Shown here: positions 28,084-59,793 of the stretch, piece after piece
How positions within the stretch are numbered: the first letter of the stretch is position 1
How the letters are laid out: each line of letters starts with the position of its first letter
NCBI GenBank assembly: GCA_016932475.1
Contig: JAFGCU010000049.1
Location: 62,001 to 126,000 of the forward strand
From: Anaerolineales bacterium
GTDB lineage: Bacteria; Chloroflexota; Anaerolineae; Anaerolineales; RBG-16-64-43
DNA: 64,000 nucleotides
Direction: 5' to 3'
Notes under the pieces: generated by a model
Told to the model about the DNA's origin: nothing
The model's database searches: none
What the model saw: the letters and a program-made list of their open reading frames with translations, nothing else
Made by a program: the position numbers and the translations under genes

Positions 28084-28440
28084 CTAGTACAGCAATCCCC
28101 AATCCGCTCCGGTATCCTCATCCATCATCGATTGTTCCCAGGCTTCCTCGCCCATTTCCATGACCACGGGCAATCCCAAAGCCTGCTCCGCCTTCTGTCT
28201 GGCGTTTTCCATCAGCGCCGGACCGTACGGGCAGAAAGGCGTGGTCAGGATCATCCGGATGGAAGCGTTCTTATCCCTTATCTCCACTTCCCGGATCATA
28301 CCCAATTGCAGGATACTCAACCCCAGTTCCGGATCCATGACCTCGCCGAGGGCCTTGCGCAGCGCTTCCGTCTGCTGCGGATGCGACCGGTCGGCCAGCC
28401 AGAGCGTCTTGGGGGTGGAAGCGTCCGAAGGCTCAGCCAT
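28084..28440 (-). CDS. DUF59/MIP18-family (SufT/PaaD-like) protein
   Basis: 118 residues with EALRKALGEVMDPELGLSILQLGMIREVEI, the DUF59 signature, and TPFCPYGPALMENARQKAE carrying the conserved Cys. Members help Fe-S cluster assembly or delivery (SufT, PaaD, CIA2). It overlaps the 3' end of sufR by eight bases and sits in the suf locus, which supports a cluster-carriage role. Confidence 0.88.
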   Translation of the reverse strand: MAEPSDASTPKTLWLADRSHPQQTEALRKALGEVMDPELGLSILQLGMIREVEIRDKNASIRMILTTPFCPYGPALMENARQKAEQALGLPVVMEMGEEAWEQSMMDEDTGADWGLLY

Positions 28441-29083
28441 TGCCGGGCTCCTTTTTCACTGCGCCGATCAAATACGTGCACGAGTCTGAACCGGTGCGGA
28501 TGCACGAAGTTCTTTCCACCGGCGCGCCGAGCGCCCGCGAGATCATGGCCGCGTCCAGGGCGCAGATCTCCGGATGGGAAAGGCTGATGCGCGAGTACGG
28601 GCAGGCCAGCTCGGTGAGGCAATACTGTCCGGCGCCGGTGCTTTCCACGCGCGCGACAAATCCTTCCCGGGTGAGCAGTTCAACCAGGCGGTCCAGACGA
28701 CGGGGCAGCGGAAGCGCATCCAACTCCGCCTGCCACACTCCGGCCATGCTGGAAGCAACCTCCGCCAATAGCTTTGCCACCATCTCCGGCGGCAGGTGTT
28801 CCTTCATCTGATCCAGAAGCAAATTGGTGAATTGGTAATACCGGGAGGAGTTCCGTTCCAGCGCGTCTGCCGTTAGTTTATATACCTGGCGGGGTCGGCC
28901 GACGCCGTGCCGTTCATCGCGCACTTCGATCATCCCCTCCGCCTGCAACGCCGTCAGGTGATGGCGCACGGCTATCGGCGTAACGTTAACTGCCGTCGCC
29001 AACTCAGAAACCGTCATCTGCCCATGAGATCGCAAAGCCTGGAAAATTCTTTCCCTGGTTGGTTCGGTGTCGGAAGTGTTCAT
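28433..29083 (-). CDS. sufR: SufR-type Fe-S-sensing transcriptional repressor
   Basis: 216 residues: an N-terminal winged helix-turn-helix (MTVSELATAVNVTPIAVRHHLTALQAEGMI) and a C-terminal Cys-rich sensor with Cys155, Cys161, Cys174, Cys194 and Cys202, enough to bind a 4Fe-4S cluster. It is divergent from sufCBD and faces a large palindrome. In cyanobacteria and mycobacteria SufR represses suf when its cluster is intact; the same logic is inferred here. The predicted start site lies about two bases before ATG 29083 with no ribosome site, so the mRNA may be leaderless. Confidence 0.9.
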   Translation of the reverse strand: MNTSDTEPTRERIFQALRSHGQMTVSELATAVNVTPIAVRHHLTALQAEGMIEVRDERHGVGRPRQVYKLTADALERNSSRYYQFTNLLLDQMKEHLPPEMVAKLLAEVASSMAGVWQAELDALPLPRRLDRLVELLTREGFVARVESTGAGQYCLTELACPYSRISLSHPEICALDAAMISRALGAPVERTSCIRTGSDSCTYLIGAVKKEPGNG

Positions 29084-29091
29084 TTCTGCCT

Positions 29092-29120
29092 ATTTTATTG
29101 ATAAAAATATAAATAGTCAA
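29092..29120 (-). promoter_or_regulatory. sufR promoter
   Basis: Minus strand: TTGACT (29120-29115), 17-base spacer, TAAAAT (29097-29092). The -35 is the left arm of the operator palindrome. Confidence 0.7.
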
Positions 29121-29150
29121 TATATAATATAAAAATATAATATATTGACT
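29115..29150. promoter_or_regulatory. palindromic operator shared by sufR and sufC (likely SufR site)
   Basis: AGTCAATATAT (29115-29125), 14-base AT-only centre, ATATATTGACT (29140-29150): perfect 11-bp arms. Each arm contains the TTGACT -35 box of one of the two divergent promoters, so a bound repressor would shut both. Confidence 0.8.
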
Positions 29151-29174
29151 ACCTGCCACAATAAATGCTATACT
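29145..29174 (+). promoter_or_regulatory. sufC operon promoter
   Basis: TTGACT (29145-29150), 18-base spacer, TATACT (29169-29174); the start codon is at 29198 with GAGG at 29189-29192. Confidence 0.75.
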
Positions 29175-29197: not shown

Positions 29198-29983
29198 ATG
29201 GCCAGTCTTCTAGAGATACAAGATTTGCACGTAAATATCGGCGAGAAACCCCTGCTTAACGGCGTCAGCCTGGCCATTCGTCAGGGTGAAGTGCATGCAC
29301 TCATGGGCCCGAATGGCACCGGCAAGTCCACGCTTGCCTATGCGCTGATGGGGCATCCCGGGTACGCTGTTACCAGCGGGAAAATCCTGCTTGACGGGAC
29401 GGATGTCCTCGGGCTGTCAACCGACGAACGATCCCGGATGGGACTATTTCTTGCGTTTCAATACCCGGTCGCCATTCCGGGCGTATCGGTCGCCAATTTC
29501 CTGCGCACGGCGATCAACGCGCGGCGGCGCGCGCTGGATCCGCAGGATAAGGGTATTCCGGTTCCGGAATTCCGCAAGATGCTGAAAGCCAAGCTTGAGA
29601 TGCTCCAGATCCCGGTCGAGTTCGCCGGGCGATATTTAAATGATGGGTTCTCCGGCGGCGAAAAGAAGCGGATCGAAGTGCTTCAGCTGGCGGTCCTCCT
29701 CCCAAAATTCGCTGTCCTGGATGAAACGGATTCAGGGTTGGACATCGATGCGCTGCGGATCGTTGCCAGCGGCGTGGATGCCATCTCCGGACCAGATCTG
29801 GGCGTGCTCGTGATCACCCACTACCAGCGGATTCTCAATTACATCAAGCCGCAATTTGTGCATGTGATGTTCGACGGCCGGATCGTCGAATCCGGCGGCG
29901 CGGATCTGGCCCTACGGCTGGAGGAGCAGGGTTACGATTGGATCCGCCAAAAGTACGCTGCGGCAGGGACGGCAAAGGCCTGA
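29198..29983 (+). CDS. sufC: SUF system ATPase
   Basis: ABC-type ATPase of the SufBCD scaffold, 261 residues. Walker [10 protein letters not shown], signature FSGGEKKR, Walker [13 protein letters not shown]. Start MASLLEIQD at 29198 is preferred over an in-frame ATG at 29165 that lies inside the promoter. First gene of sufC-B-D. Confidence 0.96.
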
Positions 29984-29984
29984 C

Positions 29985-31394
29985 ATGACGCAGAACGGGA
30001 AACCGCAATGGGAAGGCCCCAGCGAATATCCATACGGCTTTCGCGATCCGGAGGAGTACCTCTACCGTGCGCAGCCCGGGTTGCACCGCGAGGTGGTCGA
30101 GGAGATCTCCTACCGGAAGGGCGAGCCGGATTGGATGCGCAAGCTGCGTCTGGAGGCGTTCGACCATTTTCTCGGGCGGCCGATGCCCGCCTGGGGCGGC
30201 GACCTCGCGGATTTAAATTTCGACGAGATCACCTTCTATATCCGTCCGAGCGACCGCACGCAGGTTTCCTGGGATGAAGTCCCGGAGACCATCAAGCGGA
30301 CCTTTGACCGTTTGGGCATCCCCGAAGCCGAACGCAAGCTGCTGGCGGGAGTCGGCGCGCAGTACGAATCCGAAATGGTCTACCACAACATTCAGCAGTC
30401 TCTGGAGAAAAAGGGGGTGCTTTTCCTATCAAGCGACGACGGCCTGAAGAAATACCCCGATATCTACAGGGAGTATTTCGGCACCGTCGTCCCGCATACC
30501 GATAACAAATTTGCCGCGCTCAACACGGCTTTCTGGTCGGGTGGGTCCTTTGTCTACGTGCCGGCGGGCGTGCATGTGGACCTGCCGCTTCAGGCGTACT
30601 TCCGGCTTAACGCCCAGGGCGTAGGTCAGTTCGAGCGGACGCTGATCATCGTCGATGAAGGGGCCTCCGTCCACTACGTCGAGGGCTGCACCGCTCCGAT
30701 GTACACACGGGATTCCCTGCACTCCGGGGTAATCGAGATCATTGTCCGGCGCGGCGCGCGCATGCGCTACACGACGATCCAGAACTGGTCCACCAATGTA
30801 TACAACCTCGTCACCCAGCGCGCGCTGGTCGGGGAAGGCGGGGTCATGGAATGGGTGGATTCCAACCTCGGCAGCCGGCTGACGATGAAGTATCCGGCCT
30901 GCATCCTGCAGGGCAAAGGCGCGCACGGCGAAATCCTCTCCATGGCGTTTGCCGGCCGCGGACAGCACCAGGATGCCGGCGGAAAAATGATCCACCTTGC
31001 GCCGGGCACGAGCAGCAAGATCACTTCCAAATCAATCAGCAAGGCCGGCGGGCGGTCCTCCTACCGCGGTCTGGTGAAAGTCCTTCCCGGCGCGACGGGA
31101 TCAAAATCCAATGTGGTGTGCGACGCGCTGCTTCTGGATTCGGATGCCCGGACGGATACGTATCCGACAATCCGCACCGAAGCCGAGCAGGTGGAGATCG
31201 GGCATGAGGCGACGGTCAGTAAAATCGGCCAGGAGCAGCTGTTTTACCTCCGCAGCCGCGGATTGACCGAAGAAGAAGCCGTTACCATGGTGGTCTCCGG
31301 TTTCATCGAGCCGCTGGTCAAGGAACTCCCGATGGAATATGCGATCGAAATGAACCGGCTGATCCAGATGCAGATGAGCGGATCGGTGGGTTAG
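29985..31394 (+). CDS. sufB: Fe-S cluster assembly scaffold SufB
   Basis: 469 residues; core scaffold on which Fe-S clusters form. Typical motifs are [34 protein letters not shown] (with a ligand Cys), [14 protein letters not shown] and SRGLTEEEA. It starts one base after the sufC stop. Length is normal. Confidence 0.97.
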
Positions 31395-31401
31395 GCGGAA
31401 T

Positions 31402-32829
31402 ATGGCGAGAAGATCCGAACGGGCATGTGAAAAGGGCGATCCAGCCGCGGCCAAACCGCCGTCGCTGACCGATATCCAGGTCGAGGCGATTGGACGGGAG
31501 ACGGGCGAACCCGGGTGGATGGTGGATTTGCGCCGGGCGGCGTTTGAGAGCTACCGGCGGATGGAGATGCCCTCGCCGGCTGCCGATGCGTGGCGCCGCA
31601 CGGATTTGCTTCATTTCCCGTACTCAGAATTGAACCTGGAGGCCCTGGCGGTTTCCGGGAAGCCAAAGCGCGTCCCGGCGTCCTGGCTAAAACCCGTCGC
31701 CGGCGTGCGGACCGGCGGGCAGCTGGCGTTGGAAGACCGGAGTGTGCACACCGCCGACTTGCATGAAGACCTTGCCCGCGCGGGTGTGATCTTCATGCCG
31801 TTCTCGCAGGCGGTCCGGGAGCATCCGGATCTCGTGCGCCGTCTGATGGGAAGCGTTATCCCGCCCACGGCCGATATTTTTGCGGCACTGATCTCGATCC
31901 TGTTTGACTCCGGCTTCCTCCTGCACGTCCCGAAGGGAGTCCGGATCGAAAAACCCCTTCATTCGCTGCTTTGGTCCTCCGGGGAAGGCCTGCGTGCGTG
32001 GAGGCTCTTGGTCAATGTCGAGGAGGGTGCGGAAGTCAGCCTGCTGCATGAGGTGGCCTCGCCGGAGCGCGCTGCTGCGGCGGCGCGGCTTGACATCGTC
32101 GAATTAATCGTCCACCCCGGCGCGACGCTGCGATTCGTCATGACCCAGGCGTGGGGCGGCAACATCGTCCGCGTGGCGCATGAAAAGGCGGCCGTGCACC
32201 AGGGCGGACGGCTTTTCTGGGGCAACGCCGAGTACGGTGCCCGTTCCACTAAAGTGTTTTCCACGTTGGATTTGAAGGGGGAAGGGGCCTCGGCGCAATG
32301 GTCCAGGATCCAGGTGCTGGACGGCGAACAACGGGCGGATATCACCACATCGCAGAAGCACTTGGCGCCGAGAACCGTCTCCGATCTGCTCAGCAAAGCC
32401 GTTCTCCTGGGCGGTTCGGAATCCAACGCGAGCGGGATGATCCGGATCGAACCGGAGGCCGCCGGCGCCGACGGCTATCAGGGGAACCGGATTCTGATTC
32501 TGTCGGAGCGCGCCAAGGCGGAGGCGGTGCCGGGATTGGAGATCCTCTCGGATGACGTACGCTGTTCGCACGAAGTCTCGATCGGCGGATTGGATCCGGA
32601 TGAGCTTTTCTACCTCCGTTCGCGGGGAATTCCGGAGGAGGAATCCAAGACCCTGCTGGTGGAGGGCTTCCTGGAGGGTGTGCTCGCCCGGATACCGGAT
32701 GAGGAAATCCGCCGGCGGATGCACCTTGCCGCCAGCGCCAAAATGAAGACAATGGATGCAGGGCAACTTCCACATACGCAGTTCATCCGGAAGCAGGCGA
32801 TGCCGGACGCAGAGGGAGCGCAGTTATGA
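31402..32829 (+). CDS. sufD: Fe-S cluster assembly protein SufD
   Basis: 475 residues; partner of SufB in the SufBC2D complex. The C-terminal half has the SufBD beta-helix core ([53 protein letters not shown]) and the N-terminal part aligns with SufD (WRRTDLLHFPYSELNLEAL). The stop overlaps the next start as ATGA. Confidence 0.94.
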   Translation: MARRSERACEKGDPAAAKPPSLTDIQVEAIGRETGEPGWMVDLRRAAFESYRRMEMPSPAADAWRRTDLLHFPYSELNLEALAVSGKPKRVPASWLKPVAGVRTGGQLALEDRSVHTADLHEDLARAGVIFMPFSQAVREHPDLVRRLMGSVIPPTADIFAALISILFDSGFLLHVPKGVRIEKPLHSLLWSSGEGLRAWRLLVNVEEGAEVSLLHEVASPERAAAAARLDIVELIVHPGATLRFVMTQAWGGNIVRVAHEKAAVHQGGRLFWGNAEYGARSTKVFSTLDLKGEGASAQWSRIQVLDGEQRADITTSQKHLAPRTVSDLLSKAVLLGGSESNASGMIRIEPEAAGADGYQGNRILILSERAKAEAVPGLEILSDDVRCSHEVSIGGLDPDELFYLRSRGIPEEESKTLLVEGFLEGVLARIPDEEIRRRMHLAASAKMKTMDAGQLPHTQFIRKQAMPDAEGAQL

Positions 32830-33158
32830 CATCCGTAGCGGTTTCCATCGGGGATATCGTCGAAGTGTTTTGCGATCACAAGCGCAGCGGCCGCAGGGTG
32901 CGCGATTGGGTCGAAGGCGTCGTCGTGCACGCCGATGACCGGATGACGGCAATCCAGTTCCGCAATGACGTGTACCTGACCGATGGATGGATGGTGCCCG
33001 ACCGGATCCTGTGGTTCAACAAGGGGTCGGTGAAAATCCGGCTTGCGAAGAAAAGCCGCGGAGCCGCCGTATCCACCAAACCCAGACCCGTCGCGCCGGA
33101 ACGGAGAAGAAAAAACGTCGCGCCGGAGCGAAAGCCCGTCCGGTCCAGTAAGAAATAG
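32826..33158 (+). CDS. small basic protein in the suf operon
   Basis: 110 residues, not recognised. Residues 1-70 look like a small beta-rich domain (VSIGDIVEVFCDHKRSG, WVEGVVVHADDRMTAIQF, GWMVPDRILWF) that resembles KOW/Tudor-like barrels. Residues 71-110 are a Lys/Arg/Pro tail. It is coupled to sufD by a four-base overlap and precedes sufS by 24 bases. An accessory role in cluster assembly or nucleic-acid binding is speculation. Confidence 0.65.
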   Translation: MTSVAVSIGDIVEVFCDHKRSGRRVRDWVEGVVVHADDRMTAIQFRNDVYLTDGWMVPDRILWFNKGSVKIRLAKKSRGAAVSTKPRPVAPERRRKNVAPERKPVRSSKK

Positions 33159-33182
33159 AATTCCGAAAAGCGCCAGGCAGCC

Positions 33183-34433
33183 ATGAAAGCCGAAACCTTC
33201 TCACGAAAATATGGGATCGATATAGAGCGCATCCGGGCGGATTTTCCGATCCTTAAGCGGCAGATCAAGCCCGGCATCCCGCTTGTCTACCTCGACTCCG
33301 CGGCTTCTTCCCAGAAACCGAGCGCGGTGATTGACGCGATGTCGGAGTATTACCGGAATCACCATGCCAATATCCACCGCGCGGTCCACACGCTGGCCGA
33401 GGAAGCCACCGGCATGTACGAAGCGGCGCGCGCGAAGATCGCCGCCTGCATCGCGGCGCAGCCCGAAGAGATCGTCTTCACCCGCAATGCGACCGAGGCC
33501 ATCAACCTGGTGGCGCAGTCCTGGGGCAGGACCCATTTGAAAGCGGGCGACCGGATTCTCCTCTCCGAGATGGAACACCACAGCAACCTGGTGCCCTGGC
33601 AGATCCTGGCCAAAGACCGGGACCTGCAGTTGGATTTCATTCCTCTGACCGGCAGCGGCGAACTGGACCTTGACGCTTGTGAAACGCTCCTCGGGCGCGG
33701 GCCGAAACTGGTGGCCTTGACGCAGATGTCGAATGTGCTCGGGACCATCGTCCCGATCCGCGAGATCGTCCGCTCGGCGCACCGCGCCGGCGCCCGGCTG
33801 CTGGTGGACGCGGCGCAAGCCGCTTCGCACATGGCGATCGACGTCCTCGACCTGGATGCGGATTTTATGGCGATCTCCTCCCATAAAATGTGCGGCCCGA
33901 CGGGGATCGGCGCGTTGTACGGCAAGACCGAGGTTCTCCGCGATATGCCGCCGTTCCTCGGCGGGGGCGATATGATCCGCAAGGTCGATTGGCGTTCGTT
34001 CGAGCCGAACGACCTGCCGTACATTTTCGAGGCAGGCACGCCGGCGATCGCCGAAGCGGTGGGCTGGGGAGCGGCGGTCGACTATCTGACCGCTATCGGA
34101 TTCGAAGCCATCCACAGGCATGAAACGGATATTGCGGCCTATGCGATGGAGTCGCTGCGGGAGATGCCCGGCCTGACGGTTCTCGGGCCGGAACCGTCCA
34201 AGCGGGGAGGGGTAGTCTCCTTTACGCTGGAAGGCATCCATCCGCATGATATTGCGCAGATTCTCGATTCATACGGGATCGCGGTCCGTGCCGGGCATCA
34301 TTGCGCGATGCCGCTTCATACCAGGCTGGGGCTCTCGGCGACCACCCGGGCTTCCTTTTACCTGTACTCCACATTCGAGGAAGTCGACGCGCTGGCCGCG
34401 GGGCTGCGGAAAGTGCGCGCGATTTTCGCTTGA
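33183..34433 (+). CDS. sufS: cysteine desulfurase SufS
   Basis: PLP enzyme that takes sulfur from cysteine for cluster assembly. 416 residues; Lys235 in SSHKMCGP binds PLP and Cys374 in GHHCAMP is the persulfide-forming residue. TEAINLVAQSWG and MEHHSNLVPWQ are group II (SufS/CsdA) signatures. It is followed by sufU, its usual sulfur acceptor in SufE-less systems. Confidence 0.96.
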   Translation: MKAETFSRKYGIDIERIRADFPILKRQIKPGIPLVYLDSAASSQKPSAVIDAMSEYYRNHHANIHRAVHTLAEEATGMYEAARAKIAACIAAQPEEIVFTRNATEAINLVAQSWGRTHLKAGDRILLSEMEHHSNLVPWQILAKDRDLQLDFIPLTGSGELDLDACETLLGRGPKLVALTQMSNVLGTIVPIREIVRSAHRAGARLLVDAAQAASHMAIDVLDLDADFMAISSHKMCGPTGIGALYGKTEVLRDMPPFLGGGDMIRKVDWRSFEPNDLPYIFEAGTPAIAEAVGWGAAVDYLTAIGFEAIHRHETDIAAYAMESLREMPGLTVLGPEPSKRGGVVSFTLEGIHPHDIAQILDSYGIAVRAGHHCAMPLHTRLGLSATTRASFYLYSTFEEVDALAAGLRKVRAIFA

Positions 34434-34440
34434 GGCAGCC

Positions 34441-34827
34441 GTGGACGATCTCTACCGCCAGCAGATCATCGACCGCTACAAACATCCGCTCAAACGCGGG
34501 ATGCTGGATCCGCACGATATTACCTATGAGGATGAGAATCCGCTGTGCGGCGACAAGCTGCGGATCGATCTACGCGTTAGTCCGGAGGGCATCATCACCG
34601 AAGCCGCTTTTTCGGGCGACGGCTGCGCCATATCGCAGGCGTCCGCGGATTTGCTGACCGAATACATCGAAGGCAAGCCGCTCGAGGAAGTCCGCACGCT
34701 CTCCAAGGAGGATATCCTCGATCTGCTGGGGATCGAACTGAGCCCGATCCGGTTGAAATGCGCGCTTTTATCGTTGAAGGTTTTAAAGGCGGGCGCATAC
34801 GGGATGAAGGAAGAGAAAGACGCATAA
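34441..34827 (+). CDS. sufU: SufU sulfur-transfer/scaffold protein
   Basis: 128 residues from GTG at 34441 with GAGG before it. The three conserved Cys are Cys36 (NPLCGD), Cys62 (GDGCAIS) and Cys107 (RLKCALL), with Asp38. It probably accepts persulfide from SufS as a zinc protein, as in Firmicutes. Last gene of the suf operon; no terminator is evident downstream. Confidence 0.93.
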   Translation: MDDLYRQQIIDRYKHPLKRGMLDPHDITYEDENPLCGDKLRIDLRVSPEGIITEAAFSGDGCAISQASADLLTEYIEGKPLEEVRTLSKEDILDLLGIELSPIRLKCALLSLKVLKAGAYGMKEEKDA

Positions 34828-58187: not shown

Positions 58188-58745
58188 TTACTTTCTGCCT
58201 TTTTTCTTGGCGGTCTTCTTGACAGCTTTCTTGACGGTCTTCTTGACGGTCTTCTTGACGGCCTTCTTGACGGCCTTCTTGGACTTCTTGACCTTCTTGA
58301 CCTTCTTGGCGGCTTTCTTGACGGTTTTCTTCGCAACTTTCTTGACCGGCTTCTTGGCGACTTTCTTGGCCTTCTTGACTACCTTCTTGACGGCCGGTTT
58401 CGGTGACTCGGCCACGGGAGCCGGAAGCTCTACGGGAGTGGGAGCAGGCTCGTAAGCCGGCGGCTCGACTGGCGGAAAAGGAGCGGGAATGTCTGTCATA
58501 GGCTTCTTGTCCTCCTGATAGGATTGGATGCGAATGGGGACCGAGGATGCGGCGGGGGCACTCAAAGGTGCATGATGGCGCAATTGATCCAAGGGAATTT
58601 TCAGCGCCTTGCGGCACCGTGGGCAGTGTTCCACGTGATGCCTGGCTTGAGTGGCATCCGCGGCGGCGAGGGCAGCCGCAACCGCATCGGAACTCATTTG
58701 AAATGCCCAGCTGCAATATTGACACCTCCAAGAAAACGCGGACAT
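58188..58745 (-). CDS. zinc-finger protein with histone H1-like Lys/Ala tail
   Basis: 185 residues from ATG 58745, set by AGGAGG. Cys8/Cys11 and His37-x3-Cys41-x2-Cys44 make a zinc-finger (zf-HC2-like, as in anti-sigma factors). A Pro-rich linker (PPVEPPAYEPAPTPVELPAPV) follows, then about 75 residues made almost wholly of KKAVKK/KVAKK repeats and ending KKKGRK. The tail is like eukaryotic H1 or bacterial Hc1-type DNA-binding tails. DNA compaction or RNA binding is inferred; no membrane helix is present, which argues against a classic anti-sigma factor. Confidence 0.8.
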   Translation of the reverse strand: MSAFSWRCQYCSWAFQMSSDAVAAALAAADATQARHHVEHCPRCRKALKIPLDQLRHHAPLSAPAASSVPIRIQSYQEDKKPMTDIPAPFPPVEPPAYEPAPTPVELPAPVAESPKPAVKKVVKKAKKVAKKPVKKVAKKTVKKAAKKVKKVKKSKKAVKKAVKKTVKKTVKKAVKKTAKKKGRK

Positions 58746-58766
58746 CAACGCCTCCTGTGTCTTTCC

Positions 58767-58794
58767 AATATACACATATTTTCCAGAAATGCAA
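58767..58794 (-). promoter_or_regulatory. promoter of the H1-like gene
   Basis: Minus strand: TTGCAT (58794-58789), 16-base spacer, TATATT (58772-58767). Confidence 0.55.
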
Positions 58795-59184: not shown

Positions 59185-59793
59185 ATGCCGTACGAGTTGC
59201 CCCCCCTCCCGTATTCCTATGACGCCCTCGAACCGCACATCGACGAACAAACCGTCCGTTTGCATCATGACAAACACCACAAGGCGTATGTGGACGGGTT
59301 GAACAACGCCGAGGCGAAACTGGCCGATGCGCGCGAGAAGGCCGATTTCGCACTGGTCAAGCATTGGGCCCGCGAGCTGGCGTTTCACGGCTCGGGGCAC
59401 ATTCTGCATTCCCTCTACTGGGCCACGATGGCGCCGGCCGGAAAAGGCGGAGGCAAGCCGGAAGGGGAACTGCTGCGCCAGATTGCTTCCGATTTCGGAT
59501 CCTACGAGACTTTCGCCGGGCAGCTCTCGGCCTCGGCGGCCGCCGTGGAAGGGTCCGGTTGGGCGGTGCTGGCGCTTTCGCCGCTCGGGAAGAAACTGGA
59601 AATCCTCACCGCCGAAAAACACCAGGATCTGACCCAGTGGGGGGCCGTGCCGATCCTGACAATCGACGTCTGGGAGCACGCGTATTACCTGAAGTATCAA
59701 AACCGCCGGGCGGATTACATCGCCGCCTGGTGGAATGTGGTGAATTGGCAGGAAGCGGCTTCCCGTCTGACCAGCGCATTAAAAAGGATGTAA
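59185..59793 (+). CDS. superoxide dismutase (Fe/Mn)
   Basis: 202 residues with no signal peptide. Metal ligands are the His of TVRLHHDKHH, the His of HGSGHILHS and the Asp/His of DVWEHAYYLKY. Fe versus Mn use cannot be settled. AAGGAG before ATG 59185. It disposes of superoxide in the cytoplasm. Confidence 0.95.
   Translation: MPYELPPLPYSYDALEPHIDEQTVRLHHDKHHKAYVDGLNNAEAKLADAREKADFALVKHWARELAFHGSGHILHSLYWATMAPAGKGGGKPEGELLRQIASDFGSYETFAGQLSASAAAVEGSGWAVLALSPLGKKLEILTAEKHQDLTQWGAVPILTIDVWEHAYYLKYQNRRADYIAAWWNVVNWQEAASRLTSALKRM

Follow-up and report, generated by a model that had tools for sequence, protein, structure and literature searches.

The 64,000-nucleotide stretch of Anaerolineales DNA analysed here (the window) contains a sufR gene that is divergent from a sufCBDS operon. 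The two are separated by a 115-bp intergenic region (77% A+T), with sufR on the minus strand and sufC on the plus strand. A long inverted repeat lies in this region, which raises the question of whether it is a regulatory site and, if so, which protein would read it. The features on which the analysis draws are as follows.

28084..28440, minus strand: SufT-like gene (FeS_assembly_P), 118 aa, PF01883 E 8e-16; overlaps the end of sufR
28433..29083, minus strand: sufR, 216 aa, with a winged-helix N-terminus and C161, C174, C194 and C202 (TIGR02702, HTH_20/HTH_5, alignment)
29092..29097, minus strand: sufR promoter -10 box TAAAAT, 8 nt from the start codon (promoter scan)
29115..29120, minus strand: -35 box TTGACT of the sufR promoter (promoter scan; operator offset in relatives)
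29115..29150, no strand: 36-bp palindrome, comprising the operator and the outer bases that complete both -35 boxes (sequence, shuffles, uniqueness in the genome)
29119..29146, no strand: predicted SufR operator proper, 28 bp, AATATATAATATAAAAATATAATATATT (gapless alignment, PWM, model R1)
29145..29150, plus strand: -35 box TTGACT of the sufC promoter (promoter scan; TTGAC abuts the operator in relatives)
29169..29174, plus strand: sufC promoter -10 box TATACT, with TGC before it as an extended -10 (promoter scan)
29198..29983, plus strand: sufC, first gene of the suf operon (TIGR01978, 342 bits, over cut-off)
29985..34827, plus strand: remainder of the suf operon, i.e. sufB, sufD, a 110-aa ORF, sufS and a sufU-like gene, the last assigned by position and sequence likeness only (TIGR01980, TIGR01981/TIGR01980, TIGR01979; ORFs)

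The 110-aa ORF between sufD and sufS (32826-33158, plus strand) has no match in Pfam or NCBIfam.

Symmetry and promoters of the sufR-sufC intergenic region

The sequence AGTCAATATATAATATAAAAATATAATATATTGACT at positions 29115-29150 is a near-perfect 36-bp palindrome that has no second exact match in the 3.65 Mb genome. Its outer 11-base arms are exact complements and 15 of its 18 mirror pairs match, a degree of symmetry attained by none of 2000 dinucleotide shuffles of the 115-bp intergenic region. An exact inverted repeat of any kind with 11-base arms arose in 0.4% of 2000 such shuffles, and the pattern GTCAA-N24-TTGAC in 0 of 5000 shuffles of the region; the palindrome is not due to chance. 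The initial annotation had described it as two exactly symmetrical arms about an N14 spacer, which holds for the outer arms, but the spacer masks further mirror pairs within a conserved core, and the GAT..ATC motif that is kept in relatives sits inside it.

A promoter scan identified TTGACT-N17-TAAAAT for sufR (minus strand, 29120..29092) and TTGACT-N18-TATACT for sufC (plus strand, 29145..29174), the latter with a TG before its -10 box (extended -10, TGCTATACT). Each arm therefore supplies TTGACT to a promoter that points outward, as had been proposed, with spacers of 17 bp for sufR and 18 bp for sufC. This geometry recurs in relatives, where the sufR-side TTGAC abuts the operator at offset 0 in 102 of 112 loci and is followed by a 17-bp spacer in 98 of the 112, and where the commonest -10 element beside the operator is TG plus TATAAT or TATACT. 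Because the -10 box stands 8 nt before the ATG, the sufR mRNA is predicted to be leaderless, and probably is so; in about half of the 112 loci only 6-10 nt separate the -10 box from the start codon of sufR.

The operator is conserved across Anaerolineae

SufR is present in 54 of 61 related genomes, and the relatives are placed in Anaerolineae, Chloroflexota (named contigs). The 53 sites upstream of the relatives' sufR genes yield the consensus AATATnnTAGATWWWTATCnTAAATATT, in which A11 and T18 are nearly invariant. The 28-bp operator of the window aligns without gaps with 38 other operators, and a symmetric matrix trained on 39 sites gives it a score of 35.2, inside the range of the training sites. 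With the covariance model R1 it is the only site found in the window; its score of 9.5 bits is weak, owing to the correction for A+T-rich composition that a covariance search applies.

The matrix was applied to 80 named loci (417,644 bp) that had been picked by their SufR protein only and had not been used to build it, although a few share their genome with a training site. A lack of conservation upstream of close sufR homologues had been named in the initial annotation as grounds for giving up the proposed site; the scan instead located the operator, class-wide, upstream of sufR in 77 of 80 cases and upstream of sufC in 37 of 40, and model R1 agrees. Across the 417,644 bp, the matrix returned zero sites away from the upstream regions of sufR and sufC. 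Of the 40 relatives that have both genes in the stretch analysed, 36 carry them as a divergent pair, with one common site in 26 pairs and two sites in 7; in three divergent GC-rich loci (L054, L067 and L083), sufR lies beside sufC with no scored site. The motif search elsewhere in the window's own genome, also suggested in the initial annotation, returned no further operator sites besides the one between sufR and sufC, and the regulon there therefore looks purely local, as far as operator sequence can tell.

The operator is separable from the -35 boxes and depends on SufR

Genomes in which sufR and sufC lie apart, by up to 195 kb, distinguish the operator from the promoters that it adjoins, as each promoter then has its own operator. 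Specifically, in genome G051 the two genes are 195 kb apart (sufR at C2:624 kb, sufC at C2:819 kb) with one operator copy each, and in L079, L086, L100 and L108 sufC is a short distance from sufR and each gene again has its own operator. At such separated genes, the GAC that completes TTGAC is kept on the promoter side only, whereas both sides retain the core and the AATAT arms; the operator is therefore the core plus the AATAT arms, and the outer GAC is part of the -35 boxes. Consistent with this delimitation, the distal operator half at sufR-type promoters is 74-100% conserved per position. Thus, the symmetry of the arms originally singled out is real, but their outermost GAC is -35 sequence, which leaves the 28-bp AATAT...ATATT element as the operator itself.

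The operator also depends on SufR. In genomes that have no SufR orthologue, sufC has no operator in all but one of those checked; the exception is a weak sufC site in L317, from genome G025, whose only SufR-like protein is 31% identical.

Sites at superoxide dismutase genes

In family f11, operator sites outside the suf locus recur at superoxide dismutase (SOD) genes. The Fe/Mn-SOD sites overlap the promoter -10/+1 region in several genera and lie beside the -35 box in L262, and a Ni-SOD site occurs in a genome that has no Fe/Mn-SOD; genomes of this family have a single kind of SOD, which is Fe/Mn in 20 and Ni in 10 of 31. The threshold was reached by 12 of 31 SOD upstream regions (9 of 21 for Fe/Mn, the 21 including the window's own SOD, and 3 of 10 for Ni), as compared to 5 of 6200 shuffled versions of these regions; the lineages that bear these SODs are related, and the 12 sites are not all independent. 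Loci with such sites include L244, L248, L253, L262, L265 and L289. We hold with moderate confidence that the SufR of Anaerolineae reads a 28-bp operator unlike those described and that, in at least one family, it also controls SOD of the Fe/Mn or Ni type. The SOD sites would widen the predicted SufR regulon to oxidative defence and, if this is true, a single Fe-S sensor would answer cluster damage with both repair and the removal of superoxide.

The Fe/Mn SOD of the window (59185-59793, plus strand) has no SufR operator by score; its promoter reads TTGACA-N17-TACAAT, and a half-like AATATTTATCCGGAT is found upstream of the -35 box. The ORF at 58188-58775 (minus strand) encodes a long lysine/alanine/valine-rich tail that is histone H1-like. 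Single operator-like sites were also seen at L164 2238-2265 (a DtxR-family regulator), L259 1255-1282 (metE) and L299 1244-1271 (a NuoE-like [2Fe-2S] protein).

Alternative explanations of the palindrome

The symmetry could be a by-product of two back-to-back sigma-70 promoters embedded in A+T-rich filler, with no regulator involved. Facing TTGACT boxes are palindromic by themselves and the outermost TTGAC vanishes on a promoterless side, in keeping with such an origin. However, the core and the AATAT arms are conserved on the promoterless side with fixed spacing, and promoters of separated sufC genes carry this core as well, as does the -10/+1 region of SOD promoters. We consider this explanation very unlikely, and two promoters alone were rejected, as the persistence of core and arms where there is no promoter contradicts them. 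An action in RNA, as the hairpin or terminator of one transcript, would suit the length of the inverted repeat, but both predicted transcription starts are downstream of the repeat, its fold would consist of A+T pairs only, and the promoter/terminator scan of the sufR-sufC region found no terminator. Mirror positions are paired in 65.4% of cells versus 68.2% in shuffles, i.e. there is no compensatory covariation, and in 65% versus 38-48% when the partner is slid. This pattern therefore fits a protein site in DNA and not an RNA stem; the hairpin was rejected, and an RNA role has a negligible probability.

Another iron or redox regulator, of the Fur/PerR or DtxR type, might instead bind the site and control both suf and sod. 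The core TGATAATTATCA resembles one half of a Fur box, Fur-type regulators often target SOD genes, and one operator-like site does lie at a DtxR-family gene (L164). Set against these points, no iron-uptake gene appears among the sites examined, the window's genome has a single site, sufC is without a site in nearly all of the SufR-less genomes checked, and the operator type changes with the SufR clade. Taken together, these observations make a Fur/PerR- or DtxR-type regulator an improbable reader of the site and point to SufR.

A model for SufR control

The protein encoded beside the operator is, judged by its sequence, a SufR homologue and not a certified TIGR02702 equivalog: it matches this family with an E value of 2.3e-31 and 109.1 bits, below the curated cut-off of 178.8, which is exceeded in 0 of 201 Chloroflexota genomes. 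Its N-terminal winged helix-turn-helix matches HTH_20 and HTH_5 over cut-off, and C161, C174, C194 and C202 are invariant in an alignment of 15 diverse relatives. The C-terminal cysteine ligands for a [4Fe-4S] cluster that typify SufR are thus present, and by analogy the protein probably carries such a cluster. The SufT-like gene, which follows sufR in many relatives, is probably co-transcribed with it.

SufR of cyanobacteria and actinobacteria represses suf and itself (PMC8593673, PMC6034842, PMC13421787). By analogy, we infer that SufR is the protein that binds here, that it acts as a repressor, and that the holo form is the binding form; 28 bp could provide room for one SufR dimer, as the initial annotation proposed, or for two. 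The palindrome is very probably the SufR operator, at which holo-SufR would repress sufR(-sufT) and sufCBDS until loss of the cluster derepresses them. In this model, holo-SufR, a winged-helix repressor, would bind the 28-bp AATAT...ATATT element. As this element is flanked by the two -35 boxes of the divergent sufR(-sufT) and sufCBDS promoters and reaches into their inner edge, the bound protein would bar RNA polymerase from both promoters simultaneously, in line with the joint repression proposed in the initial annotation. When the Fe-S supply fails, through iron shortage or oxidative damage, the cluster would be lost and SufR released, and the suf operon and sufR itself would be derepressed.

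Comparison with known SufR systems

The arrangement resembles that of Synechocystis, where SufR (sll0088) is likewise encoded divergently to the suf operon, and the repression predicted here for both suf and sufR, acting through shared intergenic sites, parallels that of cyanobacterial SufR (PMC8593673, PMC6034842, PMC13421787). The C-X12-C-X27-C spacing of the ligands is also shared, as C161/C174/C202 correspond to C203/C216/C244 of Mycobacterium tuberculosis Rv1460, for which a leaderless sufR mRNA, probable here, is stated as well (PMC6034842). The systems differ in their sites. In Anaerolineae, one common site is commonly fused to both -35 boxes, whereas Synechocystis is reported to have two separate sites of different affinity (PMC6034842). 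In the actinobacteria Streptomyces avermitilis, M. tuberculosis and Corynebacterium glutamicum, sufR heads the suf operon instead of diverging from it, and the S. avermitilis site (CAAC-N6-GTTG) lies over the -10 box (PMC11995493), whereas the Anaerolineae site touches the -35 boxes. In place of the cyanobacterial CAAC-N6-GTTG, the Anaerolineae operator is the A+T-rich, 28-bp consensus given above. The expectation that the two sites differ is borne out, as the 28-bp operator does not contain that motif, which is absent within one mismatch upstream of sufR in L183, a copy of the window locus.

According to one review, SufR occurs only in cyanobacteria and some actinobacteria (PMC8593673). Our literature search returned CAAC-N6-GTTG as the only SufR site, in cyanobacteria and S. 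avermitilis, and found no paper on SufR of Chloroflexota. The predicted SufR-type control would thus span a large chloroflexotal class with an operator other than CAAC-N6-GTTG, and the 28-bp motif is a ready tool for finding SufR targets.

Other Chloroflexota have other operators. An exact CAAC-N6-GTTG is located 36-52 bp before sufR in eight loci of one other Chloroflexota family, and in L172, L173 and L177, also from other Chloroflexota, a GTCAACC..GGTTGAC palindrome whose arms are both -35 boxes lies between divergent sufR and sufC. In a SufR tree, the three operator types fall on separate branches, with support of 100/100 for the canonical type, 100/99 for the GTCAACC type and 68/41 for the Anaerolineae type, which forms one weakly supported group. 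The recognition helices read SKQGALRHL, TAVAVRKHL and NPISVRHHL, respectively. Judged from tree and helix sequences, the operator type goes with SufR clade and recognition helix, and three types matched to three helices offer a natural series in which to follow how repressor and site change together.

Many genomes also encode another SufR-like protein, which is more distant (about 30-37% identity) and not located beside suf; at L225, a related A+T-rich palindrome lies beside the promoter.
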